Positions 1 through 24,332 of a DNA stretch of 64,000 nt are shown here, one piece after another. The stretch's first letter is position 1, and every line of letters starts with the position of its first letter. The translations under genes and the position numbers were made by a program. The notes under the pieces are model-generated. The model did no database searches. It worked only from the letters and a program-made list of their open reading frames with translations, and was not told where the DNA came from. Source of the stretch: an uncultured Verrucomicrobiota bacterium (GTDB lineage: Bacteria; Verrucomicrobiota; Verrucomicrobiia; Chthoniobacterales; JACTMZ01); NCBI GenBank assembly GCA_903953565.1, contig CAJBKE010000015.1, positions 1 to 64,000 on the forward strand, read 5' to 3'.

Positions 1-1
1 C

Positions 2-415
2 CAAAAGCTCGGTATCGGGCAGACTTATGAGTTCGCGGCGGTGCAGGGGAATCGTCTGGAATGCGGCGGCTGGCGTAACACTTCCGTTCCGAATTGGGTC
101 TATCGCTTCACCGCGTCCGAAATCCGGCAGACCATCAACTGTGCCGCGCCCTTCGGTCCCCACCGGTTTCATTTCCACTACCGCACCCGTGTTCCGTGGC
201 GTCAGTTGCGCGCGCGCCGCAATAAGGTTCCCCTAATGTTGGCAGCTATTGCTGCGCCGGTTTTGCGTGTTCTCGACGCGTTCGGTCCGGTGGCGAGTAA
301 CAACCTTGCTGCCGTGGTCGTGAAACCGGATCTGCCCGCGGAGAAATTCCCGTGGGTCGATCAGCGGGGTAACGAGTGGGTGGCCGATCCGGCTTGGTTC
401 CGCGCTGGTGGGTAG
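2..415 (+). CDS. 3' end of a protein in the polysaccharide locus, possibly a methyltransferase
   Basis: An open frame runs from the window edge to a TAG at 413-415, so the 5' end is missing. About 137 residues are visible. They are rich in Arg, Trp and Phe and end in Trp-Phe-Arg-Ala-Gly-Gly. The style (an early Trp/Tyr-rich stretch, then a hydrophobic helix, then a short polar tail) resembles the C-terminal part of class I SAM-dependent methyltransferases found in sugar loci, but the SAM-binding motif is not in view. The function is a guess from context. A glycosyltransferase gene follows on the same strand after a repeat-like gap. Confidence 0.45.
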   Translation, partial: QKLGIGQTYEFAAVQGNRLECGGWRNTSVPNWVYRFTASEIRQTINCAAPFGPHRFHFHYRTRVPWRQLRARRNKVPLMLAAIAAPVLRVLDAFGPVASNNLAAVVVKPDLPAEKFPWVDQRGNEWVADPAWFRAGG

Positions 416-542
416 AGAGATTTTAACGAAAAGTAATAAAGTTAACGAAGGGTGATAGCGAAGCGGATTGGAGGGCACTCACGGAGGCACGGAGAGCGCG
501 GGGGACAGGAGTGCGTTGCCACTTAGTGGGGGCTGTGGTCTG
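416..542. repeat. intergenic word-like repeat sequence
   Basis: The gap between the truncated gene and the first glycosyltransferase carries a TTAACGAAAAG..GTTAACGAAGGG type string (about 422-452). A similar string sits at 16922-16952. It also carries a CACGGAGGCACGGAG tandem (about 479-495). These look like members of short dispersed intergenic repeat families rather than coding sequence. A longer frame starting at 468 crosses this repeat, which is one reason I place the next gene's start at 543. Confidence 0.5.
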
Positions 543-1748
543 ATGCGAGGAATGGAGCGGCGGCCGCGAGTTTTGCAGATTTTTAATCGCTACCTGGAAT
601 ATGGTGGGGAGCAGGGGAGCGTGGGGCGGATTGGGGACACGATGCAGGAGATTGCGGATGTCGAATATTTCCTTACCTCGAGTGATCAACTGCTCGGTCA
701 GAGGATGCCGGAGGAGATGGTCAAAGCGGCGGCGTTAGCATTGCACAATCCGCAGGTGGTCGAGCGGTTGAAGCGGTATCAGAAGATCGGTCGGTTCGAC
801 ATCTGGCTGATCCACAATGTCTTTCCGGCGATGTCGCCATCGGTTTACGCGCTGGCTTTCAAGCTGGGTATTCCGGTCGTGCAATATTTGCACAACTACC
901 GGATGTCGTGTGTGAATGGTTTTTTTCTCAATCACGGGGAGACCTGCACTTCTTGTATCCACGGCAATTTCACCAAGGCGGCACTGACCGGTTGTTGGCA
1001 CAACAGCCGGGTGGTCAGCGGCTGGATGGGGGCAGTGATGATGCGGGTTCGTGCCATGGGAGTGTTCCGCGAGGTGGCGGCATGGATTGCGGTCAGCCGG
1101 GCGCAGAAGGACCTGCATGTGCAGATGGGTATTCCGGCGGAGCGCATTCATGTGTTGCCGCATTTTTACGAGGTGGATCCCGAGCGGTTCATCGTGGAAC
1201 CGGGACGCGATGTGTTGTTCGTGGGACGTCTTTCCAAAGAAAAAGGCGTCGAGCAAGTGCTCGACGCCTGGAAGCGGACGGATCGCGGTGAGGCGAAGTT
1301 GCTATTAGCCGGGGAGGGTCCGGAAAGAGTGGCCCTAGAAAACAAAATCGCCGCCGAAAAGATCGGCGGTGTGGAGTTTCTCGGCTTTGTGGCGAAGGAG
1401 GATCAGGCAGCTATGTGGAAACGCGCAGCATTCTCAGTCGTCCCGTCCATCTGGCAGGAACCGCTGGGCCTGGTGGTGTTCGAGGCGTGGGAGCGAGGGC
1501 GTGGCGTGGTGGTGTCCGACGCGGGCGGCTTGGCCGATTCGGTGGACGATAGCGTTAGCGGTTTCAAGGTGCCGATGCGTGATGCGGAGGCTTGGGCGGC
1601 GGCGATGGGCAAGTTGTTGCGCGAGCCGGCGCGCAGTGTGGAAATGGCGCGGGCGGGGGTGGCGAAGCTGGAGCGGGATTTCACGAAGGAAAAGTGGCTT
1701 GAGCGTATCGGGGCTATCTATGATGAACTATTGAAGAGAAAGAATTGA
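543..1748 (+). CDS. glycosyltransferase family 4 (GT-B fold)
   Basis: Predicted to move a sugar from an activated donor to a membrane-bound polysaccharide intermediate on the cytoplasmic face. The protein is about 401 aa from the ATG at 543. The N-terminal domain opens with RVLQIFNRYLEYGGEQ, as in GT4 enzymes. The C-terminal domain has FVGRLSKEKG near residue 226 and an E-x7-E motif (EPLGLVVFE, about 306-314) that binds the donor nucleotide sugar. Four cysteines near 123, 135, 138 and 151 match a cysteine-bearing insertion seen in some members of this family. An in-frame start at 468 would add 25 residues of repeat-derived sequence, so I reject it; 552 is a further alternative start. Donor and acceptor cannot be told from sequence. 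Confidence 0.9.
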   Translation: MRGMERRPRVLQIFNRYLEYGGEQGSVGRIGDTMQEIADVEYFLTSSDQLLGQRMPEEMVKAAALALHNPQVVERLKRYQKIGRFDIWLIHNVFPAMSPSVYALAFKLGIPVVQYLHNYRMSCVNGFFLNHGETCTSCIHGNFTKAALTGCWHNSRVVSGWMGAVMMRVRAMGVFREVAAWIAVSRAQKDLHVQMGIPAERIHVLPHFYEVDPERFIVEPGRDVLFVGRLSKEKGVEQVLDAWKRTDRGEAKLLLAGEGPERVALENKIAAEKIGGVEFLGFVAKEDQAAMWKRAAFSVVPSIWQEPLGLVVFEAWERGRGVVVSDAGGLADSVDDSVSGFKVPMRDAEAWAAAMGKLLREPARSVEMARAGVAKLERDFTKEKWLERIGAIYDELLKRKN

Positions 1749-1984
1749 GCCACAGCCGGAGCGTAGCGCAGACGGCCGAAGGCAAATTAACACGGATGAA
1801 CGGCCTGGATAAAAATGAAAAAGTTGCGCCGTTGGACAACGGCGCAACTTCAGTTATCGCGACAGAAGACAAGGTCCTCAGATGGCGGTCATCAGACAGC
1901 AGCGGGAAGAAAAACTGCTTTGATAGCACCACCCAAACCAAGGAAACTTAGCCACCGATTGACGCGGATTAACACGGATAAAGG
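1749..1984. repeat. intergenic repeat region
   Basis: This 236-bp gap carries two copies of the 12-mer ATTAACACGGAT, at 1786-1797 and 1968-1979. Each follows a GCCAC word (near 1749 and 1951). A strong hairpin lies between them. The arrangement looks like two copies of one intergenic repeat flanking other sequence. No convincing gene is present. Confidence 0.6.
1821..1850. terminator. 13-bp perfect stem-loop, possible terminator
   Basis: Arms AAGTTGCGCCGTT (1821-1833) and AACGGCGCAACTT (1838-1850) pair perfectly around a GGAC loop. On the plus strand it lies about 70 bases after the glycosyltransferase stop. An A-rich run precedes it, so a U-rich tail would exist only on the minus strand. 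The loop resembles those of the other intergenic hairpins in the window. Confidence 0.5.
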
Positions 1985-2668
1985 ATGAAAGATATTTTTG
2001 CAAAGAACGCGAAAGACCGACGGTGGTTGATGGCGGTGCCGTTTGTTGCGGTGCTGGCGATTTTTCTGATCGAGGTCGAGACACCGGGGATCCGGGTCAC
2101 GCCGTCGTTGCTGACGATTGCTTTGGCCATCTTCGCGCTGTTCCTGTCGCCTCGGGCAGTGCTTTGGTGGGCGGTGGTGTTATTTGTTCCGGTTGTGCTG
2201 ACTTTGTGGCTCGTTCCGAATGCCGGGGTGCGGGAGTCCGCGAACTTTGTCGCGCTGCGTTCGGCGGCTTATCTCGCGGTTGCTTGGGTGGCGGTGGGGT
2301 TGAGTCGTTACCGCTGGGATTCCGAGCGCAGGTTGGAGGGAATGCTGGCCTTGTTCGACTCGCTGCAGACTCCGATCGTGGTGTCCGACATCGACGGTAA
2401 CATCAGATTCGCCAACCGGGCCTGTTGCGAGCTGCTCGGGCGCGGTGCGAAGGAGATCAAGGACACGAACTTCTTTGCGGTGTTCAGCCAACCCGATCGT
2501 CGCGGCCAATCGATCGAGGACTACCTCAAGTGCTTCGACCAGAACACAAACCAGAGCACATCAATGACCGTCAGCATCCAAGACGCCGCCGGAGAAAAAA
2601 TGCTGCGCGCGAACTGTGTATCCATGCAATGGAATCACCAGCGGCTGCTGGTTACCCAACTAAGTTAG
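1985..2668 (+). CDS. membrane protein with C-terminal PAS domain
   Basis: The 227-aa protein has about four hydrophobic segments in residues 15-105, then a PAS-type domain from about 118 (LFDSLQTPIVVSDIDGNIRF followed by ANRACCELLG). No kinase, GGDEF or other output domain follows; it ends right after the PAS fold. It may be a truncated or accessory sensor, or a regulator of polysaccharide export. The first residues (MKDIFAKNAKD) are encoded by an AAAGAACGCGAAAGA word typical of dispersed intergenic repeats, so the true N-terminus is uncertain. The last 18 codons recur in a degenerate second copy at 3702-3755. Function unknown. Confidence 0.75.
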   Translation: MKDIFAKNAKDRRWLMAVPFVAVLAIFLIEVETPGIRVTPSLLTIALAIFALFLSPRAVLWWAVVLFVPVVLTLWLVPNAGVRESANFVALRSAAYLAVAWVAVGLSRYRWDSERRLEGMLALFDSLQTPIVVSDIDGNIRFANRACCELLGRGAKEIKDTNFFAVFSQPDRRGQSIEDYLKCFDQNTNQSTSMTVSIQDAAGEKMLRANCVSMQWNHQRLLVTQLS

Positions 2669-2675
2669 ACACGCA

Positions 2676-3596
2676 ATGAAAGCTCTCGTCACTGGCGGCG
2701 CAGGATTTATCGGTTCACACCTCGTCGATCTGTTGCTTTCGAAAGACTGTGAGGTGGTGGTGGTCGATAACCTTGCGACAGGCCGACGGTCACAAGTCCC
2801 TGAGGAAGCTTTTTTCCTGCAGGGTGGTGTTAGTGATGCCGACTTGCTCGCCAAAGCGCTGCCCGGGTGTGACGTGGTTTTTCATCTGGCTGCGGTCTCT
2901 TCGGTTCAGGATTCACTGGACCGGCCGATCGAGGTTCACAATACGAACCTTACCGCGACGCTTGTGCTGCTCGAAGCTGCTGTGCGCTACAAAGTGCCGC
3001 GCTTTGTTTTTTCCTCATCGGCCGCCATCTATGGCGATACCGGTGGCGAACCTGCCCGCGAGGACATGATTCCCAAGCCGATGAGTCACTACGCGGTGCA
3101 GAAGCTGGCCTCCGAACACTACTGTCAAGTTTACCAGCGCTTGCACGGGTTGGAGACAGTCTGCCTGCGCTATTTTAACGTGTATGGTTCGCGGCAGCGA
3201 GCCGACTCCCCCTATTCCGGAGTCATCGCCAAGTTCATCGACGCAGCCCGCGCCGGCCAGCCCATCACGATTTTCGGGGATGGGGAGCAGACCCGGGACT
3301 TTTGCCACGTGAGAGATGTGGCGTCGGCCAACTACTTGGCCGCGACGCAAGATAGCGCCAAGGTCGCCGGAAGAGTTTTCAATGTAGGCACGGGAACATC
3401 GACTTCAGTCAACGAGCTAGCTCGCCTCGTTGGGAGTGTTTTTGGAACTGGCGCGGTGCCTATCGCGCATAAACCGGCCCGCCCAGCGGAGATTCGCTAT
3501 TCGCAAGCCTTGGTTGAGGCTGTTCGTGACAAAGTGAGGTGGGCGCACTCTGTTCCCCTTGGAACATCGTCGCTCGCAACCTGCGTCCAAGAGTAG
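2676..3596 (+). CDS. NAD-dependent sugar-nucleotide epimerase/dehydratase (extended SDR)
   Basis: Likely a UDP-hexose 4-epimerase or related enzyme making a sugar donor for the locus. The 306-aa protein has the Rossmann motif GGAGFIG at 7-13, the catalytic Ser region (FSSSAAIYG) and YAVQK near 139-143 as the Tyr-x3-Lys pair. NVYG and RDF.HV.DV substrate-domain signatures are also visible. The start is 7 bp after the PAS gene. The body is normal to SVPLG, but the last dozen residues do not resemble the usual family ending, and the stop comes about 100 bp before a degenerate duplicate of the PAS gene end. The C-terminus may have been replaced by recombination. Confidence 0.88.
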   Translation: MKALVTGGAGFIGSHLVDLLLSKDCEVVVVDNLATGRRSQVPEEAFFLQGGVSDADLLAKALPGCDVVFHLAAVSSVQDSLDRPIEVHNTNLTATLVLLEAAVRYKVPRFVFSSSAAIYGDTGGEPAREDMIPKPMSHYAVQKLASEHYCQVYQRLHGLETVCLRYFNVYGSRQRADSPYSGVIAKFIDAARAGQPITIFGDGEQTRDFCHVRDVASANYLAATQDSAKVAGRVFNVGTGTSTSVNELARLVGSVFGTGAVPIAHKPARPAEIRYSQALVEAVRDKVRWAHSVPLGTSSLATCVQE

Positions 3597-3847
3597 CGTG
3601 TTGGTTTCATGCCAATGATGTCTCGATAGCGCCACTTGTCTGACGTAGTTTCATGTCCGCGATGCTACGGATTACCAAACCGGACCTGCTATATGGACCG
3701 CGGCAACTGCGTATCCATGCAATGGGATCACCAGCGGTTTTTGGTTGCTCAATTGGGACAGGGCAATATTGACATGCACCCGCTCTGCCGGTCAGAGCTA
3801 TGGAGAAGCTCGGTGATATTAGTATCCAAATGCGGTGCAATCGGTTT
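3597..3847 (+). pseudogene. intergenic region with a degenerate copy of the PAS-gene 3' end
   Basis: Bases 3702-3755 match 2609-2662, the last codons of the PAS-domain gene, with few changes. Read in the same frame they give the words NCVSMQWDHQRF and LVAQL, against NCVSMQWNHQRL and LVTQL in the intact gene. The frame around the copy has no PAS body and no plausible start. It is therefore a gene fragment left by duplication or recombination, not a working gene. The two copies flank the epimerase gene as direct repeats about 1.09 kb apart. Confidence 0.7.
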
Positions 3848-4711
3848 ATGAAGCTTTCCGTGTTCAAGCCAAGCAAGCTACAATGGCTTTTCAGCCATGA
3901 TGTTGCTCGCAAGCACCCCTTTCGAACCGTTTGGCGGCTGATCAATTGGGAGCTTATCCGGATTCTTAATCGAACTGTTGAGAGCCGATATGACGGGAAT
4001 TTCGACGTTACTCTCTTGCCGCGCGAGGGGGCGTCTCGGTTGGCTTACTACTTTGGAGTCAGCGAGCCGGAGTTATTCGCTTTTTACGAGGGCTTCCTCA
4101 AACCGGGCATGACAGTTGTGGATGCGGGTGCAAATATAGGCCTTCACACGCTCTTCTTTGCCAAGCGCGTGGGGCCTGAGGGAAGGGTCTATGCATTCGA
4201 GCCCGGCCAATCGGCTTTCGGTCGCCTAAAAAGTCATGTCGAGAGGAACCAACTCGCCAACGTTCACTGCTTCCACTGCGCCTTGGGTGCTTCCGAAGGA
4301 GTCGTCGCGATCACGGAGAATTGCCACGACAATTCACGCAACTTCGTGGTGGAATCTTCCTCTGGGACAAATGGCACCAGGAATGTTGTGCTGCGCTCTT
4401 TGGACCAGGTTCTCAAAAAGGAAGGCGTGGGTCGTGTTGACTTCCTGAAAATTGATGTCGAGGGCTTTGAGCCGCAAGTGTTAGAGGGCGTCAGCAATTA
4501 CCTGCGGCAGCAATCCATTCGTGTCCTGCAGCTTGAGTTAGATGATAGCAGCTTGGCTAGGTCCGGATACACCGCTGCCCAAGTTAGTAATATGCTGCAT
4601 GATGCTGGCTATCGGTGTGCCGAATGGAGTTGTCAGAGCAGGAGCTTTCGAGCTGCAAGCAAGGCTTCATTCAACACTTTCTTTGTCACCGAGAACGAGC
4701 TGGTGCAGTGA
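3848..4711 (+). CDS. FkbM-family methyltransferase
   Basis: Probable SAM-dependent O-methyltransferase acting on a sugar of the surface polysaccharide. The start at 3848 (MKLSVFKPSK) gives 287 aa; a start at 3800 would add residues from the fragment region. Motif I is MTVVDAGANIGLHT at about 95-108, followed by VYAFEPG, the acidic SAM-ribose strand. The later DFLKIDVEGFE motif is the FkbM signature. The gene converges with the next glycosyltransferase, leaving only 2 bp between the two stop codons. Confidence 0.85.
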   Translation: MKLSVFKPSKLQWLFSHDVARKHPFRTVWRLINWELIRILNRTVESRYDGNFDVTLLPREGASRLAYYFGVSEPELFAFYEGFLKPGMTVVDAGANIGLHTLFFAKRVGPEGRVYAFEPGQSAFGRLKSHVERNQLANVHCFHCALGASEGVVAITENCHDNSRNFVVESSSGTNGTRNVVLRSLDQVLKKEGVGRVDFLKIDVEGFEPQVLEGVSNYLRQQSIRVLQLELDDSSLARSGYTAAQVSNMLHDAGYRCAEWSCQSRSFRAASKASFNTFFVTENELVQ

Positions 4712-4713
4712 CG

Positions 4714-5976
4714 TCAGCGTGCAGATTTCTCTCGCCGCTGCTGCAATGCGTCGGAGTAAACCATATTGATGTTACTCGCGTAGGAATCCTCACGGAACGA
4801 AGCTGCCACCAATTCTGAGGCAGCGCGCCCCATTTCAATCCGACGTTGTGGTTGTTCCGTTAGGAGGCACACTACGCTTGCCAAGCCTTTCGAAATGTCA
4901 GCTGCTCTACCAACAGGAATCTTGAATCCGCAGCTATCGTTGACCACTCCTGCCTGTGCGCTGGCATCAACAATTACGGGCACGCAGCCTGCAAGCATGG
5001 CCTCGAGCATAGTGATTCCCGCATTTTCGCGAAAGCTGGGAAGGATAAACACGTGAGACTCCTTGAGTTTGTTCAAGTATTCATCTCCGGAAAATCCCAT
5101 GTGGAACTCGACCCAATCGTCTATCCCGAGCGCGCGAGCTTGTTTCTTTAAAAAGGGAATCTCCGGTCCATAGCCTCCGACAACGAGGCGCCACTTAATA
5201 CCTCTTTGAGCCGCAATTTGTAGGGCTTCCAAGGCAAAGATTAGTCCTTTGGATCCGATAATGTTCCCTCCGGCAAAAAGACGAATCGGATCTGCGGGAG
5301 GTTTGTCTTCCGGATCGCATCGAAACATTGCGACCTGTTGGTCGGTGAAGAAGGTCGGGAACAGCAGATGCATGCCATTGGATCTGCCGCGCAGGTCCAA
5401 GAGCTTATCAAACGTCTCCTTGTTAGACGCGACCACGGCATCCGAGTTGCGCAAGCAATTCCTCAGTGATCTGGAATGCGAGGCGTGCAGGTTCGAAAAT
5501 CCCCGCACCAGCTCGAAGACAGCTGAGCGCGTTGCGAGTCTTCCGAGAAGATGAAGCGGATATACAGCGGCGCCACCAACGGGCCCCCAGACAAAAGGCA
5601 AATCCAGCTGCCAAAGCGGTGAGGGAATCCGCCAAGACGAGTAGGTCACATGGTGGGCCAAGTCGAAGTGCTGATGTGCTGCGAGTTTGCGCGCGATTTC
5701 CAACGACTGGCGTGTCCAATCCACATATCGCTGCCAGCTTTGGAGGCGCGCGATGAGGCGGTTCTCGTGGTATGGGGCGTCGCTTCCGAAGAAAGTGAAA
5801 GAGAGGTTTGGGTATGCGCCGGTCGCGAGCGCGCGTTCGACACCATCGTGCTCTCCCTTGGAGGTAAGCACGCGCACGGTGTGCTCTTTGCTGAGCGCTG
5901 TAGCCGCTTTCCAACCCACGCCACTTTCGGAGCCACGGTCTGGATAACAAGCTATGGCCGACAGAAGGATCCTCAT
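4714..5976 (-). CDS. glycosyltransferase family 4
   Basis: The start at 5976 (MRILLSAIACYPDRGSESG) gives 420 aa. This opening is typical of GT4 enzymes with the YxPxxGSE nucleotide-sugar loop, and it removes a non-conserved 17-residue extension. The C-terminal half has LRRLFAGG-type and VVGGYGPE donor-site strands and an E-x7-E motif (ENAGITMLE). It is a cytoplasmic GT-B enzyme adding one sugar to the repeat unit. It is divergent from the polymerase-like gene at 6063, so the 86-bp gap holds promoters or leaders for both. Confidence 0.88.
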   Translation of the reverse strand: MRILLSAIACYPDRGSESGVGWKAATALSKEHTVRVLTSKGEHDGVERALATGAYPNLSFTFFGSDAPYHENRLIARLQSWQRYVDWTRQSLEIARKLAAHQHFDLAHHVTYSSWRIPSPLWQLDLPFVWGPVGGAAVYPLHLLGRLATRSAVFELVRGFSNLHASHSRSLRNCLRNSDAVVASNKETFDKLLDLRGRSNGMHLLFPTFFTDQQVAMFRCDPEDKPPADPIRLFAGGNIIGSKGLIFALEALQIAAQRGIKWRLVVGGYGPEIPFLKKQARALGIDDWVEFHMGFSGDEYLNKLKESHVFILPSFRENAGITMLEAMLAGCVPVIVDASAQAGVVNDSCGFKIPVGRAADISKGLASVVCLLTEQPQRRIEMGRAASELVAASFREDSYASNINMVYSDALQQRREKSAR

Positions 5977-6062
5977 GGGCAGGACTTCTCCGCTAAGCGC
6001 ACTTGAATCGCGTATCGCTCTGCGCAAGGCTTCTGCATTGTCGGTGAGATAGGCCTACCACT

Positions 6063-7682
6063 GTGAACCTGCGAAATATTTCCGCCAACCAGATCGTCGT
6101 TTGTACGGCATTACTTCTTGGATTGCTCTTGGCTGTGATGCTCGGCAATGCGGTAGGAAGTTCGGATATGCGGTTAGTTGCGGGAATCATTGCGGTGATT
6201 CCGGTCGCGGTCATCTTTGTCAAACTCAAGACGAACATCTGGGTATTGTTGCCAATTGGTTGGTATCTGTCCGGAAAATTCACATGGTTGCCGCTACCTT
6301 TCACGGTGCGTGATCTATGCTTCATGACGGTGATTTTCTTTTTCACGCTGTTTCTTGCGACGCGCGCTCTGCCATGGAGACGAAAACTCAGCGCCCTCGA
6401 TTACCTCATTTATATCAACTTGGCCTACCTCGCGACCGTGTTTGTTCGCAATCCGGTGGGCTTCTGGGCGATGCAGTCGAGCATGGTTGGTGGCCGGCCG
6501 TATTTCGAAATCGGCTTAGCCTTTGGCGCCTTCATGATTCTGAGTCGTGTTCAGATCACCGATTTTATCGCCAAGGTTTTCCCGCTTTTCTTCGTCGTGC
6601 CCGCATGGTGTGTGGGTATCCTCGACGTAATCAGCCGACTTAGCCCCCAAACTGGCTATGTGCTAAACTCGATATACAGCGGCGTAGGCACGGGGGGGGC
6701 CACCGCTGCGTTTCAAGCCGAAGCCGAACTTGGCGCAACGCGCATGACCGGGTTGCTAGGCGCAGGCTTAGCCTCAGTGTTAGCTCTTTGCGCTAGATAC
6801 AATCCCATTACCCTGATTTCGCCACTGTATCCCCACAGGGTCATGATGCTGACGATTGCTTTTGGCGCCATTTTTCTTTCCGGTTTCCGTAGCGCTCTGA
6901 TCTTTGCTTTTCTGTCATTCTTGATCTCGTCCATGCTACGAGGCCGCTTAAAGGACCTATGGGTTGCGGGCGGGGTTGCGATGTTGGCTTTGGTCTTGCT
7001 CATCTCGATGCAGGGAAGCGTTCTGCAGTTGCCCTTCACGATGCAGAGAGCGTTATCGTGGCTGCCGGGAGATTGGAATACCGAGGCTGTCACTGACGCC
7101 GACGAATCTTCTCGGTGGCGCTTCGAAATGTGGGGATGGGCATGGAACGACAATCGAATTCTGCGGGACCGCACGTGGGGTCAAGGCTTCGGTCTATCTC
7201 TGGACGATATGAATCTTATCGCCAGTTCCATGATGGCTGGTCAAAGCGGAGCAAGTCTTCTGGGCGGTTCCGACCGGGAAAACTTCATGATCATGGGAAC
7301 CTTCCACAGTGGACCTCTCTCAACCGTCAAATATATCGGGGTAGTCGGCTTTTGCCTCTATTACTCCCTCATGTGCTATATGGCCTTAACGGCTTGGAGA
7401 CTGTGTAAACGCGCACGTGGGACGAATGCTTTTACGCTGTCTCTGTTCGTAGGAATCCCGATTATCTATGAGCCATTCAATTTTGTAGTCATTTTTGGAG
7501 GCTTAGACAGTAATTATCCGCAAATGCTTTTTTGGGCCGGCTTGCTCAATATGACCAACAACTACATCACGCAACTGCAAGCAGGAAGCGTAAATCCTTC
7601 TTTACCTCAACAAGTTAACCATTCTGGCATCGCTTCTATTTCGGCCGGGCGCAGCGCAGTAACCGCGTTGAAAATCAGCTGA
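6063..7682 (+). CDS. O-antigen polymerase/ligase-like polytopic membrane protein
   Basis: A 539-aa protein with about 11-13 hydrophobic segments spread along its length and a long loop around residues 330-415 containing the words RWRFEMWGWAWNDN and WGQGFG. This resembles the large periplasmic loop of Wzy/WaaL-type proteins. Context (glycosyltransferases and a flippase) supports polymerisation or ligation of repeat units. Start is GTG at 6063. Sequence conservation in this class is low, so Wzy and WaaL cannot be told apart. The stop abuts the stop of the convergent neighbour with no spacer. Confidence 0.72.
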   Translation: MNLRNISANQIVVCTALLLGLLLAVMLGNAVGSSDMRLVAGIIAVIPVAVIFVKLKTNIWVLLPIGWYLSGKFTWLPLPFTVRDLCFMTVIFFFTLFLATRALPWRRKLSALDYLIYINLAYLATVFVRNPVGFWAMQSSMVGGRPYFEIGLAFGAFMILSRVQITDFIAKVFPLFFVVPAWCVGILDVISRLSPQTGYVLNSIYSGVGTGGATAAFQAEAELGATRMTGLLGAGLASVLALCARYNPITLISPLYPHRVMMLTIAFGAIFLSGFRSALIFAFLSFLISSMLRGRLKDLWVAGGVAMLALVLLISMQGSVLQLPFTMQRALSWLPGDWNTEAVTDADESSRWRFEMWGWAWNDNRILRDRTWGQGFGLSLDDMNLIASSMMAGQSGASLLGGSDRENFMIMGTFHSGPLSTVKYIGVVGFCLYYSLMCYMALTAWRLCKRARGTNAFTLSLFVGIPIIYEPFNFVVIFGGLDSNYPQMLFWAGLLNMTNNYITQLQAGSVNPSLPQQVNHSGIASISAGRSAVTALKIS

Positions 7683-8882
7683 TTAGCCTGCCGCCAGTAT
7701 TTCAGCGAGCATCTCATTATAAGAGGCCGCGTTCTTCCGTAGGCTATATACTTCCGATGCAGCTTGCAAACCTTCTTGGCTCGACTTGGATCTTAAGTCT
7801 GGGTTACTTGCGATCTTGGACATCGCTTTGGCCATGGAAAGCTGAGACGTAACACATACTCCTGCTGGTAATGAGGCTATGCACCCGGCTTTGCGGCCGA
7901 TCCAAGGCTTGGCAAAGGACATAGACTCCAAAATAGATATGGGTTGCGTTTCCAACTTCGAGGAAAGCACGAATGCGTCTGATTCACGAAAGGCGGAAAG
8001 CGTATCTTCTCTCGTCTGTTTATCGAGCCACACGATGCGACCGCACTTGCTAGTGGCCGGAATATCATCGTCCATTTTTTGGAACTTTCTCGACCATTCA
8101 TTGAACTCGGTCCCAATAAACACAAGAACTGACGCGGGGATGTTAGCTTTGCGAAACGCTTTTACTGCGAATCCTTGGTCTTTGCCCTGCGAGTAGTAAG
8201 CGACACAGAGGAAGACGAAGGCGTCCTCCGGTATGTGATGAGCGCTGCGGAAGGATCTGGGTGTCTGTGTGTAGTCGACAGGTTCAACCCCATTTGGGAT
8301 AACTCGGATGCCGGGATGTCGTATGAATCGCGCCAGTGTATGATCAAAAAACGCATCAAAGTCGCATTGGTGGCTTAGGAAAACCCAGCGATTGATGTAG
8401 CGCGCCCATCGGAGCATCGAAAAACTTTTAAGAGTCGACCGTGCCCATTGGCCGAGGCCGAAGGGAAATTTCCGCACCCAAAACCACCGGAGAGCGGCGT
8501 AGCCATGGCTCACCAGCACCTTTTTGGCCTTGATCTTTGGGAGTAGCGGGACGGCGAGTTGCAGGGGCCAGCCATAACCTTCAAAAATAATGACGTCCCA
8601 TAAACCGTTTCTGAGGAAATCCCTATAGCCGGCGATGATCGCGTCACGGCGCTGTTGATCATCCTGTGTGCCCTCCACGTCGAACTCATGCACCCTTGCA
8701 CCCCTCCACCTCATTTCCTTGCGATTGGTTTTCGCCGGCGCGGTGGCGATCTCCACCTTCCACCCCGCATCGAGCAGGATACGCGCGCAGGTGCTAGACG
8801 CCTTAGCCACCCCGTTTAAATCTGGCGGAAAGGTAAAGGTTGCTACAAGCGCTGAGGGCTGGTGCGGCCTATCGCGTACCAT
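7683..8882 (-). CDS. glycosyltransferase family 4
   Basis: The start at 8882 (MVRDRPHQPSALVATFTFPP) gives 399 aa and overlaps the upstream FkbM gene end by 14 bp. The N-terminal domain has PPDLNGVAKASS, the glycine-bearing acceptor loop. The C-terminal domain has a FVFLCVAYYSQGKDQ strand where GT4 proteins carry G(R)xxxxKG, and a donor-site E-x7-E type motif (ETQPISILE). It is expressed with the FkbM gene and the flippase on the minus strand. Confidence 0.85.
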   Translation of the reverse strand: MVRDRPHQPSALVATFTFPPDLNGVAKASSTCARILLDAGWKVEIATAPAKTNRKEMRWRGARVHEFDVEGTQDDQQRRDAIIAGYRDFLRNGLWDVIIFEGYGWPLQLAVPLLPKIKAKKVLVSHGYAALRWFWVRKFPFGLGQWARSTLKSFSMLRWARYINRWVFLSHQCDFDAFFDHTLARFIRHPGIRVIPNGVEPVDYTQTPRSFRSAHHIPEDAFVFLCVAYYSQGKDQGFAVKAFRKANIPASVLVFIGTEFNEWSRKFQKMDDDIPATSKCGRIVWLDKQTREDTLSAFRESDAFVLSSKLETQPISILESMSFAKPWIGRKAGCIASLPAGVCVTSQLSMAKAMSKIASNPDLRSKSSQEGLQAASEVYSLRKNAASYNEMLAEILAAG

Positions 8883-9723
8883 AGACGAAGTCTCTTTCGT
8901 AGGGAGGTGAGCCTGCCGGAGCGTAAGACAAATGGAATCCATGCTCTACGAGCAGCCTCTGAACGGCTGATTTTGTTTTTGTGTGCTCTCCCAGGAAGTC
9001 GTGGCAGCAGACGCAGACCGACTTGGTCTTTCCCAATGTATCAGGTGCGCCCTGCAACGCGTCGACTTCCGCACCCTCTATATTCATTTTCAGAAACGCG
9101 ATATCTCGTGCCTCCATGACTTGCGGCAAATCGTCGATACGCTTGGCCGGCACCTTGCTTCCGGTGCCACCGCCTCGCTTAAGCGAGGCGCATTGCCAAA
9201 GTTCCTCAGTTTCCTCGGTGATGAAGCAAAATCCCGCATGGTCGGAAACGGCGCAGTGTTCCGCAAACACATTAGGCAACTGGTTCAAACGAACAAAATT
9301 GTCTAAAATCGCGTACGTCTTGGGATGCGCTTCGATGGCCACAACCTTGCCAGACGGGCCCACTGCTGTGGAGAGGACGCACGTGTCCTCTCCTCTTCCG
9401 GCACCAATATCCACAACGAAATCCCCTAGTGTAGGTCTGTAATGGCGGAACCACCAGATCCGTCGGAGTCGGGACATCTCTTCGCCACGGGGCTCCCAAG
9501 TGAGCATAGCGCCCCGATTCAGGTTGAAGCGGCCGCCGAGTGGAATGGCAGCTCCATCATCAATGCGGAACCAACAGCCATCAACGTATTGAAAATCAAT
9601 CGGTCGCTGAGTCACAGCTCGCGCAACCAAGCGCCCGGTGACCAGTAGCATACGTCGCCCTAGCCGCGAGCGCTCCAAGAGCCCTGATAGAGAAGTTAAT
9701 AGCGAACGAAGCTGCTGATTCAT
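8869..9723 (-). CDS. FkbM-family methyltransferase
   Basis: A start at 9723 (MNQQLRSLL) gives 284 aa and a 4-bp ATGA overlap with the flippase stop, so I prefer it to a start 78 bp upstream. Motif I is FVVDIGAGRGEDT, followed by VVAIEAHP. The FkbM acidic motif is IAFLKMNIEGAEVDAL. Likely methylates a sugar of the same polysaccharide. A perfect 20-bp palindrome (9171-9190) sits inside the coding sequence at the ASLKRGGG segment. Confidence 0.85.
   Translation of the reverse strand: MNQQLRSLLTSLSGLLERSRLGRRMLLVTGRLVARAVTQRPIDFQYVDGCWFRIDDGAAIPLGGRFNLNRGAMLTWEPRGEEMSRLRRIWWFRHYRPTLGDFVVDIGAGRGEDTCVLSTAVGPSGKVVAIEAHPKTYAILDNFVRLNQLPNVFAEHCAVSDHAGFCFITEETEELWQCASLKRGGGTGSKVPAKRIDDLPQVMEARDIAFLKMNIEGAEVDALQGAPDTLGKTKSVCVCCHDFLGEHTKTKSAVQRLLVEHGFHLSYAPAGSPPYERDFVYGTR
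9171..9190. repeat. 20-bp perfect palindrome inside a gene
   Basis: CGCCTCGCTTAAGCGAGGCG is its own reverse complement. It lies within the FkbM methyltransferase gene at a Lys-Arg-Gly-Gly-Gly loop. It could form an mRNA hairpin or be a remnant of a small palindromic insertion; nothing in the sequence decides between these. Confidence 0.6.
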
Positions 9724-11231
9724 GTGTGCATACGGCAGATGGAGGAACGGGCCCTTTTGACTAGTTGTATTCGCGCCCCGGGCGACATTATAAGAAACCA
9801 AGCTGAGATGGTACCCGCCACCATGACCAAGCCAGTCAGCAACCCATAGCCCAGCGAGGATGAAAATTGTGGGAACGCTTGCGTTACGAAGAAGATCACG
9901 CAGACGATTAAACCAGCTTGAAGCATCAAGTGGTTGAATGAGGTATTGTCACCCAACACCCGCCTCGCAGCAACCGACGAAAACGTTAAAGTAATGAGCA
10001 AGTGCACCAACAGTGAAGCGCCTATCAACCCCGGAATCCCAAAGCGGGTTGCCGTAGGTATACCGATGGCAATAAAGACTGCGCCTTCGACCCAATAGAG
10101 GTTGCGCACGGGTCGCAAGTTTCCGGCGATGCCGAAAAGACCGACGAGGCAACGACTGGAGGTTGTAGCCAGCAGCAGCGCCCCAAGCAGAAAGTCCCAT
10201 CGACCGTTCCACTCGACCACTCCCGAAGTCCACCACCGCACTACCAGGGTGTTTGCCGCTACGAGAGCGATGGAGCCTACTGTGCCTAAGAACAACGAAG
10301 TGCGGAAAACATCCACAAAGCGGTGCCGCAACCTGTTGTTGTCTTTCTGCACAAACATTTCTGTGAGGGCCGGCGCGGAGGACTCCACCAGACGCCCCGT
10401 GAGTTGGCTGCCGAGGGTGTAGAATTTTGTGCCGACGGCGAACGTTGCGGCGGCTTCCAGTCCGGCTGTGCGCCCCAAGATCATGATCTGCGAGGAATTC
10501 ACTAATTGCGAGCCAACGGACAGAAGCATCACGTCTTTGCCGAAAGCAAACATTTCGCGAAATGTTTCCCAACGAGGCTGTCCCCAGTTGCCGCGGGATG
10601 GATAGAATCCTGCACGTTGACACACGGCAAATCCCACGACGGTGCCTACGATCAGCGGAGGGATTCCAGCGATAGCGAAGCTGTAAATGCCCCAACCGAG
10701 GTAGAATGCTGCCCAAAGGCTGGCCAGTCCGACCACCAGAGAGATGATCCCCAGACCATAAGAAACGTCGAGGCGTTGGAAAGCCCACAATGGAGCTGTT
10801 AGCGAGCGCAGGGCAATAGTGACTCCGGTCAACGCCGCGAGGAGTGTAATGATATTACGAAAAGTATCCGCCAAAGCGGGGGGAACTTGAAACAGTGCAG
10901 GCGCGAAAAGCGCGAAAAGTGCTCCCAGGGCGAAAACCATCATGCCTTGCAGAATGAAGACCGCCGCCCCGGTTATCAGCAGCGAGCCGTATGGACCTCC
11001 GTTGATGTGGTCTTTGTGGTTGGCTAGCAATCGGCTGACCGCACTGGATAGCCCGAAATCGATCAGCATCAGGTAACCGGCGATTTGCTGAGCCAAAGCC
11101 CAGAGGCCAAATTCCTCTTTGCCCAGATACCGCAAGGCGAGCGGAATGCTGAGGACCGTGAACGCGATGTTCGCGACGATGAGTGCGTAACCCGTCCCGG
11201 TGTTGACGGCAAACTGTCGGGTGCGGCTCAC
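9720..11231 (-). CDS. Wzx-like polysaccharide flippase (MATE/PST superfamily)
   Basis: A 503-aa protein with about 12-14 hydrophobic helices from residue 10 to the end. The N-terminal segment (NTGTGYALIVANIAF then RYLGKEEFGLWALAQQIAG) matches the first helices of Wzx/RfbX oligosaccharide flippases, including the Gly-Leu-Trp element. It would move lipid-linked repeat units across the inner membrane. The start is 4 bp inside the end of the upstream glycosyltransferase gene, and its stop overlaps the FkbM start, so this is an operon. Confidence 0.87.
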   Translation of the reverse strand: MSRTRQFAVNTGTGYALIVANIAFTVLSIPLALRYLGKEEFGLWALAQQIAGYLMLIDFGLSSAVSRLLANHKDHINGGPYGSLLITGAAVFILQGMMVFALGALFALFAPALFQVPPALADTFRNIITLLAALTGVTIALRSLTAPLWAFQRLDVSYGLGIISLVVGLASLWAAFYLGWGIYSFAIAGIPPLIVGTVVGFAVCQRAGFYPSRGNWGQPRWETFREMFAFGKDVMLLSVGSQLVNSSQIMILGRTAGLEAAATFAVGTKFYTLGSQLTGRLVESSAPALTEMFVQKDNNRLRHRFVDVFRTSLFLGTVGSIALVAANTLVVRWWTSGVVEWNGRWDFLLGALLLATTSSRCLVGLFGIAGNLRPVRNLYWVEGAVFIAIGIPTATRFGIPGLIGASLLVHLLITLTFSSVAARRVLGDNTSFNHLMLQAGLIVCVIFFVTQAFPQFSSSLGYGLLTGLVMVAGTISAWFLIMSPGARIQLVKRARSSICRMHT

Positions 11232-12391
11232 CGTTGACCTGATAAATTCGCCGATCGGACAACTTGGTCGTACACTTGCAAGTGGCGCTGTGCGACTGAT
11301 GTTGGCCCGTGTTTCTCCAAGCAGGCGCTTTGGGCGACCTGTGCCATGTGTGTGGCTTTATGTTTGTCAGACAGAACCACGCGGACAGTGTCGCTGATGG
11401 AGGTTGCATTACGAGGATCGAAAAGGAGACCGCTCCGGCCATCTTCGACCAAATCGGGGATACCGCCGATGTTGGCAGCGGCAATAGGGACACCAGCCGC
11501 CGCCGCTTCCAAGACCACCATAGGACAATTGTCCTCGAAAGAGGGCAGCACCAAAGCGGTGGCCGCAGAAAGCTCGCGACACAACGCGTCCCGTTCCAGA
11601 GGACCTGTGCAAACGCACCACTTACGCTCCGCAACCATGCTCCTGAACCTTGTAGAGTAATGATCTTGCCCGCTAAATGCGCCGATAAACCGGAGTTCAA
11701 AGTCTAGTTCGCGACGAAGGGGGTCCAAAGCCGCAATCAAACCAGTTTGGTTTTTCCATGGGCTTACGTTGGCTATGCAAACAAGACGTTCCGTGGTGAC
11801 AGGTTGGCGATCTACTCTGAAAAAATCATTGTTTACTGCGTTAGGAATCAACCAAACCCGTTTGGTGTAAGGTGCAACAGCTTCCGCCGTGTAGGAACTG
11901 ATCGCCACCACGCCATCGGTTTTGCGCAAGCACCATCGTTCAAAGCGTGCCGCTAGCCAGTAGTAGGTGAGCGGCTTGGCATGGATTAGCGCGGCTACCT
12001 TGCCCATGTTGCCGTGTATAGTAATCACGTTAGGAAAGCCGGACTGAACCGCGCTGATTGCGCAGTCACGCTCTGTGCCTTGGCCGTGGACAATGCTGGG
12101 CTGGATCTCGCTGAGCTTGCGTCGCACTGCGCTGATGCACCCACGGTAACCAGTGCGCAGCCAACCGAGTTTAGAAACAGCGAGCGGATGGTAGTAGATG
12201 TTATGTGCCAGCTTGCTCGGAGACGACTTGGGCGGTTGCTGCAGGCAAGAGATCACATGCACTTCGATCTCGTCCCGCAGCTCTTTGAAGCCCTCTAATA
12301 ACGCCTCTGGTGCTGTGCCAAAATACGGGATCGGATTCGCGTAGTTTTTGAAGTGCTCACGCGAGTCAGTGGTGAGAAAGGCAACCCTCAT
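11228..12391 (-). CDS. glycosyltransferase family 4
   Basis: The start at 12391 (MRVAFLTTDSREHFKNYA) gives 387 aa and a 4-bp ATGA overlap with the methyltransferase upstream. A longer frame would add 66 Arg-rich residues that are a shadow of that gene. Features include IVHGQGTE, VITIHGN in the N-domain and LVCIANVSPWKNQ, ALVLPSFEDNCPMVVLEAAAAG in the C-domain, the latter with the E-x7-E donor motif. Typical of enzymes building bacterial exopolysaccharide repeat units. Confidence 0.88.
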   Translation of the reverse strand: MRVAFLTTDSREHFKNYANPIPYFGTAPEALLEGFKELRDEIEVHVISCLQQPPKSSPSKLAHNIYYHPLAVSKLGWLRTGYRGCISAVRRKLSEIQPSIVHGQGTERDCAISAVQSGFPNVITIHGNMGKVAALIHAKPLTYYWLAARFERWCLRKTDGVVAISSYTAEAVAPYTKRVWLIPNAVNNDFFRVDRQPVTTERLVCIANVSPWKNQTGLIAALDPLRRELDFELRFIGAFSGQDHYSTRFRSMVAERKWCVCTGPLERDALCRELSAATALVLPSFEDNCPMVVLEAAAAGVPIAAANIGGIPDLVEDGRSGLLFDPRNATSISDTVRVVLSDKHKATHMAQVAQSACLEKHGPTSVAQRHLQVYDQVVRSANLSGQR

Positions 12392-13197
12392 GCCGTGCGC
12401 TGAAAGACGCGATTGTGGCCGACCCGCAGGATTTCTCGAAACCGAGCCTGGTCCACCTCCCGAGCAACCCGTGACGGTCCGGGGTGGCCAGCGGTGGCGA
12501 AGGCCGGCGGTCGGTAAGCGGTATCTACAGCGGAGTCGTCGAGCACGATGATGCCACCCGTCCGCACCTGTTCGGCGCAAAGGTCCCAATCCGTCCGAGC
12601 GACTTCGTAATCGTGGTTACCGTCGATGTAGATCGCGTCCCAAAGCTCTTCTTTGATTCGTTCACACGCGGCGGAATCCGTAGAAAAAGCCTGCACCAAG
12701 TCTGGCTCCGGAAGAGCGAAGTGCGCAAAGTTCGTCTTTGTGTCGGCCAGGTAATCAACATCGTTGCGGTAACTGCTGACCGCGTCTCCCGAGGACGTGA
12801 ATGGCGAAATGCCCGTGATATGGCCGGTGATCCCTAGATCATTTTGGAGCATGGCAGCCAAACTCAACGTCTGTCCGCGATAAACGCCGATTTCCAGAAA
12901 CTGATTCGGTCGCAATTTTCGGAACAGCATCCACCACATCACATGAAACGCGTCCTCCCCAAAACCACGTTGATCCTGGAGAAAATACTCCCTGTGCATC
13001 TTCAGTTCATCCGGAAATTGAGACCTGTGGAAATAACGTACGCAGTCAAGGTAGTAGCTCGTGGGGTCGGAAAGACTGCGCTCCCAATCCTCCAGTGCCG
13101 AAAAGTTAGTCTCACGAGCCAGAACCTTGCGGAGAACCTGCTTCGAGCGCAGTCGATGCAAATTTCCTCCGAAATGTTTTCTAAGTGCTCCGATCAT
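12388..13197 (-). CDS. class I SAM-dependent methyltransferase (Methyltransf_24-like)
   Basis: The 269-aa protein has LEIGVYRGQTLSLAA as motif I near residue 102, then WDAIYIDGNHDYE and GGIIVLDD. These are the signatures of the O-methyltransferase/Methyltransf_24 group found in polysaccharide and cephalosporin-hydroxylase-like loci. Likely modifies a sugar or the chain end. It sits between two GT4 genes and overlaps the downstream one by 4 bp. The ATG start at 13197 is 10 bp after the previous gene. Confidence 0.8.
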   Translation of the reverse strand: MIGALRKHFGGNLHRLRSKQVLRKVLARETNFSALEDWERSLSDPTSYYLDCVRYFHRSQFPDELKMHREYFLQDQRGFGEDAFHVMWWMLFRKLRPNQFLEIGVYRGQTLSLAAMLQNDLGITGHITGISPFTSSGDAVSSYRNDVDYLADTKTNFAHFALPEPDLVQAFSTDSAACERIKEELWDAIYIDGNHDYEVARTDWDLCAEQVRTGGIIVLDDSAVDTAYRPPAFATAGHPGPSRVAREVDQARFREILRVGHNRVFQRTA

Positions 13198-13207
13198 CGG
13201 GAATTCC

Positions 13208-14209
13208 TCAAAGTGTCTTGTAAATTTGCATCAGTTGATTGGCGACATCGCCCCAGCGGCAAGGCTTGCAAGGAGATGGGAGTGTTTGCGCCTCTTCATA
13301 GAATTTCCGCAGTGCTGCGGCAGTCGAAGCAGTGTTGCCGATCGGACAGTAAGTCGCGGTGCGGCCGAAGGTGGAACGAGCCCATGGAAGATCGGAGAGA
13401 AGCAGCGGGCATCCTGCGGCCGCGGCTTCCTCCGACGAAAGGCTTCGGGTTTCCATCGTGCTGAGAAGCACGAAACCGCGAGCCTCCTTGTAAGCGCGGG
13501 CCAGTTCGGCGCGGTCTTTCAGTGCTCCAGTGTAGCGGATCAGATCGGGCCTTTGCTCCGCAATGCCTAGGAATCTCCGATAGTAAGGATCCTCCTCTCC
13601 GTAGGGGGCACCAAGGATTCGCAGCGGGGTCTCAGCGAGAAGCGCTGCTTCGGCCAGCTCGACTACCCTTTTGCGTGGCGTGACTGTGGCGGTGCAGACA
13701 AGCTCATTGCTGCGGGGGACGGCTTGTGAGCTTGGATTTAGGAAAAACACTTCTTCGACTCCATTGGGCACTATGTGAATCCTCTCAGGAGGAGGGGCGA
13801 AAAGAAGTGTCGCCACTTCGGCTTCCCAAGTTGTGCCAACCAACAGTGCGTCTGCTTTCTCGTAAGCCTCCCAACGAAAACTCGCTAGAAAGGTTGCTGG
13901 CACGACGTTGCGAAGCGTCTTCTCCAAAGCTCCTTGGAGTCTTAATTGAGCGGGTGTCCTCGATCCCTGCCCAGTGAATAACTCGCTCATTACATACTTC
14001 ATGCCCTTGGCGTGTGCGAAATCGATGTGGCATGGATTTGCGCGACCAAAGAAGTGAATAATGTCCCCGCCCTGCGAGTCATCCCACCACCGAAGATATT
14101 CGGCCTCGATTCCGTTGGCCTGCAGAGCTTGCTTGGTTCGCTCGATTTGGATTTGCAGTCCTCCATGAGCCAATAAAAAGGGAAGTTGATGGTCTATGAG
14201 AACTTTCAC
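13208..14209 (-). CDS. glycosyltransferase family 4
   Basis: A 333-aa protein. MKVLIDHQLPFLLAHGGLQ is the N-terminal strand and acceptor loop. HIVPNGVEEVFF, VCTATVTPRKRV and an EEAAAAGCPLLLSDLPWARS-like donor region are the C-domain features. It is shorter than its neighbours but appears complete. It is the first gene of the minus-strand run ending at 7683 and is separated from the membrane protein upstream by about 150 bp with no clear structure. Confidence 0.85.
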   Translation of the reverse strand: MKVLIDHQLPFLLAHGGLQIQIERTKQALQANGIEAEYLRWWDDSQGGDIIHFFGRANPCHIDFAHAKGMKYVMSELFTGQGSRTPAQLRLQGALEKTLRNVVPATFLASFRWEAYEKADALLVGTTWEAEVATLLFAPPPERIHIVPNGVEEVFFLNPSSQAVPRSNELVCTATVTPRKRVVELAEAALLAETPLRILGAPYGEEDPYYRRFLGIAEQRPDLIRYTGALKDRAELARAYKEARGFVLLSTMETRSLSSEEAAAAGCPLLLSDLPWARSTFGRTATYCPIGNTASTAAALRKFYEEAQTLPSPCKPCRWGDVANQLMQIYKTL

Positions 14210-14357
14210 GGCATTAGTAGTTCGCCCATTGGGTGGAGAAATTATTAACAGTGAGTGACATGCTTAGTCCAAACTGTTGCGTCAGGGGCCGCTGCCCACC
14301 CGGTCAATAAGTAGCAAAGGCCCTTCACAAAAATGCTGCAAAAAGCAACTTGCGCAC

Positions 14358-15908
14358 TTAATCCAGACGTCGATAAACGCGAAAATTATTAGCGTTGAAA
14401 AATTTTCCCCCGGCCGGCACGAACGCAAAAGGGTGGGGGAGAGCAGGTATCTCTTGTTTTGGAATGGGCACCTCGATCCATTCTCCCCCGCTCCAATCCT
14501 TCAAGATACCGACGAGTTTCTGCTGCCGCTCGCTCAGATCGGTCACAATCATGGTGACTGAACGGGCCAAATCCCTTGGGAGGACGTTCTCCAGCGAGTC
14601 CTCGGCCTCATACGTGGTCGAAACATGAAAAAGGGAGTAGAAACTTCCGACTTTGGGGCGCAGAGCCATGTAAGCGGCTTCAGTGCCCAGAACGACATCC
14701 TGCGGTCCAGCCCCGGATAAGGCCAAACGACCAGACACAGCCTTGTGGTCAGTGAGAGTCCATGCAGCCAAGTGGCTGTAAGACAATGAATGGGCCAAGT
14801 TGTTGCGCAATAAAAGCAGCACCAGCAGCACCAAGAAGGCCCAGCGGTATACCTTCGGTGCTGGTGCGCCACCAAAGATAAAAACCGCGTACACAACTAT
14901 CAAGGGTAGCAGCACAAGGAAGTTATAGTGTGCATACCAAACGTAAAAATTGCCGACAAATCGCATGCACACCATGGTGACAACGCAATACGCGGAAACG
15001 CTCAACACGAGCTGGGCAAAAGGCGTGCCCTTATTCGCACCCAAGACGACTGCAAGCAAAACCACGGGGAGTAACACGAAGAGATGCGATTGAATAAATG
15101 CATAAGAGTATTCGCCGTAACTGAAAAAGTTCTTGAGGCGGTCGAGGATGGACAAGCCTCCAACCAGTTTGATGTTCTCGTGGTAAGACACCCATGCGCC
15201 AGTCCATTGATACAAAAAATAAAAGCTCGCGCCACCCAGTAGAATACCTCCCGCAATTGAAGCGACCTGACGTCTACCGCAGTATTTGAACAGGTAAGCA
15301 ATTGAGAGTGCGATCACGGCAGGAATCGTCATGTGCAGGCCGCAGTAGGGTATCAATGCAGATAGTGCGGTTAGGGCGGCAAGGTTTCCCGGGCTTGTGC
15401 GAAACGTGGCGGTTAGGATGATCAGCGAAAAAACAAAAATCGTAAGGCTTTCTGGTCTGGCGTGGTGGGAAGCGTAGAACGCCGGATAAGTAAGCATCCA
15501 TAGAATGAGAAGCAGCAGAGCTTGTCTGGTGCCGCTGATCAACTTCATGCGGTTGAGTGCAAGTATGCTGACGAGTCCTGCAGCGCAGGTTAGAAAGAAT
15601 GGAAAAAGCCTTACTGAGAGCAGATCGAACCCGAAGACCGTGATCCACGCTGCCAGAAGCGTGGAAAAAAGCGGATAGTTCATTCCATAAGGAGAGTGCT
15701 GGGCAAAGCTCGCGACCAAAGTGGAAGCCGGCTTGCCCGAGGTCGCCAAATGCCAAGCGGGCTCTACCATGAAAGCTTCATCGTAGTTAAAAATTGGCAT
15801 TCTCGGCAGGGCCAAGACCCACTGAATGCACAGAAATAAGAATACGAGCCAAAGAACCACATCATACGAGCGGCTAGCTGGATTTCTGAGGAAACTCGAG
15901 CGCTTCAT
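14358..15908 (-). CDS. GT39/ArnT-like polytopic membrane protein
   Basis: A 516-aa protein with about 10-12 hydrophobic helices. The first large loop holds IFNYDEAFMVEPAWHL. An Asp-Glu pair in this loop is the catalytic position in ArnT/PMT-type lipid-phosphosugar glycosyltransferases (GT39). SHHARPESL in the next loop also fits. It probably transfers sugar from a polyprenyl-phosphate donor on the periplasmic side, but the acceptor is unknown. ATG at 15917 and 15908 are both possible; I chose 15908. Confidence 0.72.
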   Translation of the reverse strand: MKRSSFLRNPASRSYDVVLWLVFLFLCIQWVLALPRMPIFNYDEAFMVEPAWHLATSGKPASTLVASFAQHSPYGMNYPLFSTLLAAWITVFGFDLLSVRLFPFFLTCAAGLVSILALNRMKLISGTRQALLLLILWMLTYPAFYASHHARPESLTIFVFSLIILTATFRTSPGNLAALTALSALIPYCGLHMTIPAVIALSIAYLFKYCGRRQVASIAGGILLGGASFYFLYQWTGAWVSYHENIKLVGGLSILDRLKNFFSYGEYSYAFIQSHLFVLLPVVLLAVVLGANKGTPFAQLVLSVSAYCVVTMVCMRFVGNFYVWYAHYNFLVLLPLIVVYAVFIFGGAPAPKVYRWAFLVLLVLLLLRNNLAHSLSYSHLAAWTLTDHKAVSGRLALSGAGPQDVVLGTEAAYMALRPKVGSFYSLFHVSTTYEAEDSLENVLPRDLARSVTMIVTDLSERQQKLVGILKDWSGGEWIEVPIPKQEIPALPHPFAFVPAGGKFFNANNFRVYRRLD

Positions 15909-16006
15909 GGGAAGCATTATATGGCCGAATTCCGCGGGAACGCCTTCAGGGAAGCAATGCTGGGCAGCAGAGATCCATTTTGGTGAACGAAAGCGTGATC
16001 AGAGGC

Positions 16007-16906: not shown

Positions 16907-17038
16907 GGGTGACAGGGACTATCTTAACAAAAGGTAACCAAGAAAACGAAGGGGGCAGGCTACCGCATTTGGTCGCGGCGCTGGCTGGCGCTTAACCGGG
17001 CAAGTTTTGAATGTGTTGCGCGGGAGCGCAGAAAGTCT
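16907..17038. repeat. short intergenic region with repeat word
   Basis: Bases 16922-16952 read TTAACAAAAGG..AACCAAGAAAACGAAGGGG, a relative of the string at 422-452. A small TGCGC-GGGA-GCGCA stem lies near 17016-17030, just downstream of the regulator gene on the minus strand. No gene seen. Confidence 0.4.
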
Positions 17039-19456: not shown

Positions 19457-19913
19457 GAAATCTTACTGTGGATGAGGTGCTTGTTGTTTAGAAGGCGAAA
19501 GGAGGGGGATGGCTGTAGAGATCAAAGGCTTGGGGAGAGGGGTTTAAGAGACCAAAATACGAAAAGACTAAGAGACCGGGGGTCCCGAGATCGGATTTCA
19601 GCGGGACAGGGGACGGGAGGTGGGGAGGATTCATGAAATAACGAAAGGCTGAGATGCTGAAACTTGAGACATGAGGGGTAGAACCTAGGAAGCAGAGGGG
19701 GAAAGAGACCAAAAGACTAAGAGACGAAGAGACTAAGAGGCCGGTGCGGTCAGAACATGGGTAAGCCATGTCGGCTTGAGGGGAAAATTGCAGAATGGGT
19801 CTCGGAAATCCACACATGGACTTTCTGCAGAAAGTCCATGTGTGGGCAGTTGGGGGCTTTTTACAGAGGAAACATGGGGTGTTGGCGCAGTAGGCTGAGT
19901 AAGCTCGGCCGAA
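19457..19913. repeat. 457-bp gap with purine-skewed repeats and a palindrome
   Basis: The left part carries repeated AGAGACC/AAGACTAAGAGAC words (about 19549-19580 and 19706-19742), a CTGAAACTTGAGACATGAGG string near 19655-19675, and a GTCCCG/CGGGAC pair (about 19582-19607). The right part holds the 36-bp palindrome listed separately. The predicted frames here are low-complexity and I do not accept any as a gene. Confidence 0.55.
19810..19845. repeat. 36-bp perfect palindrome
   Basis: The 18-base arm CCACACATGGACTTTCTG is followed directly by its exact reverse complement. The sequence can form a cruciform or a long hairpin. It lies about 70 bp beyond the stop of the minus-strand DUF192 gene. 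No clear U-tract follows on either strand, so it is not a standard intrinsic terminator. It could be an operator or a recent palindromic insertion. Confidence 0.8.
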
Positions 19914-20402: not shown

Positions 20403-20528
20403 GGCATGAGATTACGCAGAAAGGCGCCCGGAGTTCACAATTTTTGTCAGAGAGAAATCAGGGTTGCTATTAGCTGCGTTAATAATACGCTCGTCCGATC
20501 CGCGCCCACGGCGCCTCACGTTAATTGG
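20403..20528 (+). promoter_or_regulatory. divergent promoter region of the respiratory operon
   Basis: This 126-bp gap separates DUF192 from actA. A TTGTCA box (20444-20449) and a TATTAG box (20468-20473) are 18 bp apart on the plus strand and could be sigma70-like -35 and -10 elements for the operon. The match is moderate and there may be others. No strong inverted repeat suggesting an operator is seen. Confidence 0.3.
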
Positions 20529-21182: not shown

Positions 21183-21183
21183 C

Positions 21184-24330: not shown

Positions 24331-24332
24331 TT

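Follow-up and report, generated by a model that had tools for sequence, protein, structure and literature searches.

Gene content of the locus

The window, by which we mean the whole stretch of 64,000 nucleotides analysed here, carries a polysaccharide cluster (positions 1-17000) in which a PAS-domain gene, a sugar epimerase gene and a second copy of the PAS gene's 3' end stand in a row between a glycosyltransferase gene and a methyltransferase gene. The features under discussion are as follows.

468..1748, + strand: GT4-type glycosyltransferase gene, the conserved neighbour on the left (Pfam Glycos_transf_1, E 2.9e-30; 66% identical to the collinear gene of the relative G002, described below)
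1985..2668, + strand: PAS-domain gene of sensor type, 227 aa, ending in repeat copy 1 (Pfam PAS, E 1e-10, residues 122-221; 51% identity with its G002 counterpart)
2606..2659, + strand: repeat copy 1, the last codons of the PAS gene, which encode the C-terminus of its PAS domain (45/54 identical to copy 2)
2676..3596, + strand: NAD-dependent sugar epimerase/dehydratase gene of 306 aa, complete frame (Pfam Epimerase, E 2.5e-71; PDB homologues 6wjb and 4zrm)
3597..3698, no strand: spacer of 102 bp with the putative right insertion junction at its end (no source match found)
3699..3752, + strand: repeat copy 2, a putatively stranded PAS-gene end (45/54 identical to copy 1)
3848..4711 (alternative start 3800), + strand: FkbM-family methyltransferase gene (TIGR01444, E 2.9e-32)

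The PAS stop codon and the epimerase start are separated by 7 bp, as if the two genes belonged together. Third-position G+C is 0.74 in the PAS gene, 0.64 in the epimerase gene and 0.60 in the FkbM gene, and G+C per kb is lower in the polysaccharide cluster (0.50-0.58) than in the rest of the window (0.57-0.67).

Several further features were recorded in the window. Between the glycosyltransferase and PAS genes, and thus upstream of the putatively exchanged region, lie an inverted repeat (1821-1850, 30 nt, 93% self-complementary) and two copies, at 1786-1800 and 1968-1982 (0.08 expected), of a dispersed repeat of the ATTAACACGGAT type, which has 29 sites in the genome at two or fewer mismatches versus none for the reversed control. 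Farther downstream, a direct repeat (19536-19576 and 19694-19733, 83%) lies near a perfect 36-bp palindrome at 19810-19845, and domain matches place a multihaem cytochrome, an iron-sulphur/molybdopterin protein and an NrfD-like protein in a row at 20343-25772, an arrangement like that of alternative complex III. Two frames of 1048 aa in the window were considered as possible paralogues and proved unrelated.

A direct repeat on both sides of the epimerase gene

The first-pass annotation had described a direct repeat of about 54 bp flanking the epimerase gene; the repeat is present, but three bases away from where it had been placed, at which coordinates 43/54 positions match. Aligned without gaps, 2606-2659 and 3699-3752 agree at 45 of 54 positions, with a longest common exact run of 15 bases in the BLAST self-alignment, and the pair is the top direct pair in a BLAST comparison of the 64-kb window with itself (E 2.5e-8; the runner-up has E 0.007). 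A 33-base pattern from the repeat, allowing up to three mismatches, matched the 2.86-Mb genome (70 contigs) at copies 1 and 2 only, and its reversed control gave no match. Similarity was not detected in the 100-base flanks of the copies: under two scorings, 824 and 538 of 1000 shuffles equalled the score of the left flanks, and 152 and 533 of 1000 that of the right flanks. A longer repeat, obtained by a permissive gapped alignment continuing past 3752, was dropped on the same grounds, the right-flank score being equalled in 152/1000 shuffles.

Searched against the 11 genomes of the family, the stretch 3560-3860 matches itself and copy 1, all remaining matches having E values of 0.3 or worse, and a 27-base pattern found no match in viral contigs. 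A scan of a collection of genome contigs turned up a single, weak PAS-protein relative. Within the window, the PAS end has a further, unrelated 20-base match at 6080-6099 with a score of 30.

The two copies encode the same residue at 14/18 core codons. Over 21 codons they differ at seven first, one second and six third positions, and over the 54-bp core at four, one and four, respectively, a pattern that weakly favours two diverged working genes over a decaying recent duplicate (binomial ~0.03 for the 21 codons and ~0.14 for the 54-bp core). An open frame at 3636-3851 reads copy 2 in the same phase as the PAS gene does, and the stop of this open frame overlaps, in the form ATGA, a possible start of FkbM at 3848. 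An extended PAS frame running into FkbM was dropped as evidence, the frame after copy 2 being open in 301 of 2000 shuffles, and codon-usage scores of the pieces did not clearly separate the frames.

The epimerase gene and the spacer

The epimerase covers profile positions 1-240 of 240 in PF01370 at 240.4 bits (cut-off 20.9), while its score of 192.5 bits for the UDP-glucose 4-epimerase GalE (TIGR01179) lies below the curated cut-off of 262.3. An altered 3' end had been proposed for this gene; the frame instead reaches a normal C-terminus by comparison both with solved homologues, which align up to residue 286 (6wjb) and 295 (4zrm) of 306, and with 16 of the 17 other phylum matches, which extend to residue 284 to 297 (G240 stops at 231). 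The two best family matches extend to residue 277. The epimerase frame is thus complete, with no clear alteration at its end.

No similarity of the 102-bp spacer to the PAS, glycosyltransferase, epimerase or FkbM genes survived controls, and among the 11 family genomes nothing better than E 0.3 was found besides the spacer itself. When the spacer was aligned with all of the PAS gene that precedes copy 1, 49/500 shuffles scored as high. Derivation from the epimerase gene was entertained when 0/300 and then 3/3000 base shuffles scored as high, but it was dropped since same-length control windows also reach the score (2/577 on the same strand and 1/577 on the reverse strand). Weaker alignments, controlled by base shuffles alone, were obtained with FkbM (7/300 as high) and with the reverse strand of the epimerase (13/300).

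Comparison with relatives

Two of the 11 family genomes, the window's own and G002, harbor a match to the PAS protein, and the same two match the glycosyltransferase at E 1e-60. G002 belongs to the same genus but a different species, and eight genes of the window have collinear counterparts in its polysaccharide cluster, with identities of 72% for a methyltransferase, 66% for the glycosyltransferase, 51% for PAS, 30% for FkbM (over 139 residues), 41% for an inverted glycosyltransferase, 53% for a Wzy-like protein, 30% for a flippase-like protein and 56% for a further glycosyltransferase. The window genes at 7683 and 8981, between the Wzy-like and flippase-like genes, have no match in the G002 locus, and a 262-aa frame behind the G002 FkbM gene is specific to G002. 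In this other species of the genus the locus has a single PAS end and no epimerase at that place, the start of an FkbM-domain gene following the PAS stop at a distance of 5 bp. Because the FkbM proteins are only 30% identical over 139 residues, and the window FkbM has no match at E 1e-15 among the G002 proteins, the two may be different genes, and G002 provides only an approximate empty site.

Identity between the window and G002 PAS proteins drops at the C-terminal end, where 8 of the last 37 residues are alike. The drop was rejected as a sign of a foreign PAS end: in an alignment of 16 sequences (L065 and L072 left out) it was seen in several other pairs too, with no drop for the pairs L046/L047 and L069/L071, and it is silent on which PAS end is foreign because both copies carry the same divergent end. 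The two PAS ends of the window are closer to each other (14/18 core residues) than to that of G002 (8/37), as expected if two related strains were their sources.

Across the order, the PAS protein was matched in 20/213 genomes, including the window's own. Loci were fetched for the 19 others, of which 17, including G002, were usable; L061 and L070, in which the script identified no PAS gene, were set aside. None of the 17 harbors a comparable second copy of the PAS 3' end; in four of the loci under 4 kb of sequence was available downstream of PAS, and the PAS match in L072 is a short one. Downstream of PAS in these loci, matches to its 3' end reach a score of 28 at most, compared with 63 for the window repeat, and scores near 28 are background judging by the score of 30 of the unrelated match at 6080-6099. 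Likewise, in none of the 17 is an epimerase the next same-strand gene behind PAS; in L048 a convergent gene of 488 aa matches the epimerase at 28.5 bits. The pairing of a glycosyltransferase with a short PAS protein, as at 468-2668 of the window, recurs in the order, the two genes adjoining on the same strand in 7/17 loci (L042, L045, L046, L047, L049, L063 and L066, each with a strong glycosyltransferase match directly before PAS).

When a donor was sought, the tail motif turned up in 1 of 210 genomes from the order, namely that of the window itself, and the 17 PAS loci contained no same-strand PAS-epimerase pair. The epimerase was matched at E 1e-72 or better in 18 of 387 phylum genomes, the window's own included; the 387 were an even sample of a larger group, and in most of them six candidates were scored. 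The remaining 17 epimerases are 44 to 57% identical to that of the window, too distant for a donor to be named from them.

Origin of the arrangement

The epimerase and the second PAS end occur together in the window and are both absent from the collinear G002 locus, so that a gain in the window's lineage is the more parsimonious reading. The block is probably derived, given the single PAS end and lack of an epimerase in G002 and the absence, from all 17 PAS loci, of a second copy or of an epimerase as next gene. We consider it reasonably probable that the epimerase block recombined into the polysaccharide locus at the end of the PAS gene, and that it came from a related strain carrying both PAS and epimerase. 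The ancestral order would have been glycosyltransferase, PAS and FkbM methyltransferase, and the incoming DNA would have carried a PAS gene with the epimerase immediately behind it. The exchanged block would then run from copy 1 up to just before copy 2. An exchange on the left, in or before the homologous PAS gene, would have left the PAS gene whole with an incoming 3' end, and the right junction would lie near the resident PAS 3' end, with little or no homology there, so that the last 54 bp of the resident gene would have been stranded as copy 2 before FkbM. The direction of change, the donor and the positions of exchange are inferred, whereas the repeat, its restriction to two sites in the genome and the epimerase-free collinear locus of G002 are observed directly. 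Such an exchange would account for the whole PAS gene, the tightly following epimerase and the PAS end before FkbM, and is likely in outline. Weighing against it are the distance of the G002 FkbM, the failure of the donor search to bring up a PAS-epimerase pair, the lack of a source match for the spacer and the draft state of the assembly. Of the two options in the first-pass annotation, insertion of the epimerase by exchange fits best, and it gains from the epimerase-free G002 locus with its single PAS end and from the lack of the repeat in the 17 loci.

The other option of that annotation was a lost second PAS gene, in which case a duplication would have placed a PAS gene on each side of the epimerase and a deletion would have removed all but the final 54 bp of the second. 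We regard this as unlikely. Copy 2 does lie in the open frame whose stop overlaps the possible FkbM start, but an open frame arises so readily in shuffles that it carries little weight, and it fits the exchange equally well. Moreover, upstream of the 54 bp no PAS-gene sequence is detectable at copy 2, and in the 17 loci no second PAS match occurs within three genes on either side of PAS.

It is quite improbable that the epimerase and the repeat are old at this site and later disappeared from G002 and the remaining relatives. Although all 11 family genomes have relatives of the epimerase, the nearest in another family genome is 45% identical, and several losses would be required with 0/17 PAS loci showing the arrangement. 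Very doubtful, too, is the idea that a small element integrated site-specifically into the PAS 3' end and brought a replacement end with it: the expected architecture of a whole gene with a new end, cargo and a displaced old end is similar to that seen here, but the block consists of the epimerase and the 102-bp spacer only, and Pfam named no integrase or transposase in 17 frames scanned between 468 and 21179 (of the longer frames in and around that stretch, 41-415, 19488-19817 and 19914-20402 were left out, and a few scanned frames match no family). Lastly, a misjoin in the assembly, fusing versions of the locus from two strains, is highly improbable even for a 70-contig draft, since the 15-base exact run common to the copies is shorter than the words usually employed in assembly and the listed contamination is 0.7.

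Returning to the exchange at the PAS end, the arrangement is most likely a minor recombination scar of a well-known type, reflecting ordinary evolution of a polysaccharide cluster and indicating no new mechanism. It documents one step in the probable acquisition of a sugar-modifying gene by a polysaccharide locus, the stranded 54 bp serving as a marker for the direction of change. We give hardly any credence to the broader notion that, in this lineage, sugar-gene cassettes repeatedly dock at the PAS 3' end to enter the locus, each bringing its own PAS end; if it were true, the last strands of the PAS domain would be swapped together with the chemistry of the polymer.

Comparison with known systems

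A literature search found no direct parallel among the papers listed, and related arrangements are known. Cassette exchange occurs in bacterial O-antigen, capsule and exopolysaccharide loci, where partial genes remain at the junctions. The locus described here is similar in having variable sugar genes within a collinear backbone and a partial gene copy at one junction, and differs in that the partial gene is a PAS-domain gene rather than one for a sugar enzyme. Elements that integrate into the 3' ends of genes and replace those ends, as e14 does in icd, likewise leave a whole gene with a new end, cargo and a displaced old end, whereas here no integrase was found and the cargo is a single gene. 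Exchange of 3' ends has also been reported for tpsA/tpsC of Neisseria meningitidis, where shorter gene-related pieces lie downstream of the gene and recombination between them is described (PMC3848433). The gene-related shorter piece downstream of the gene is the feature shared with our locus; the Neisseria system comprises several cassettes with intervening frames and acts in growth inhibition, whereas here a single 54-bp piece lies beside an epimerase gene.
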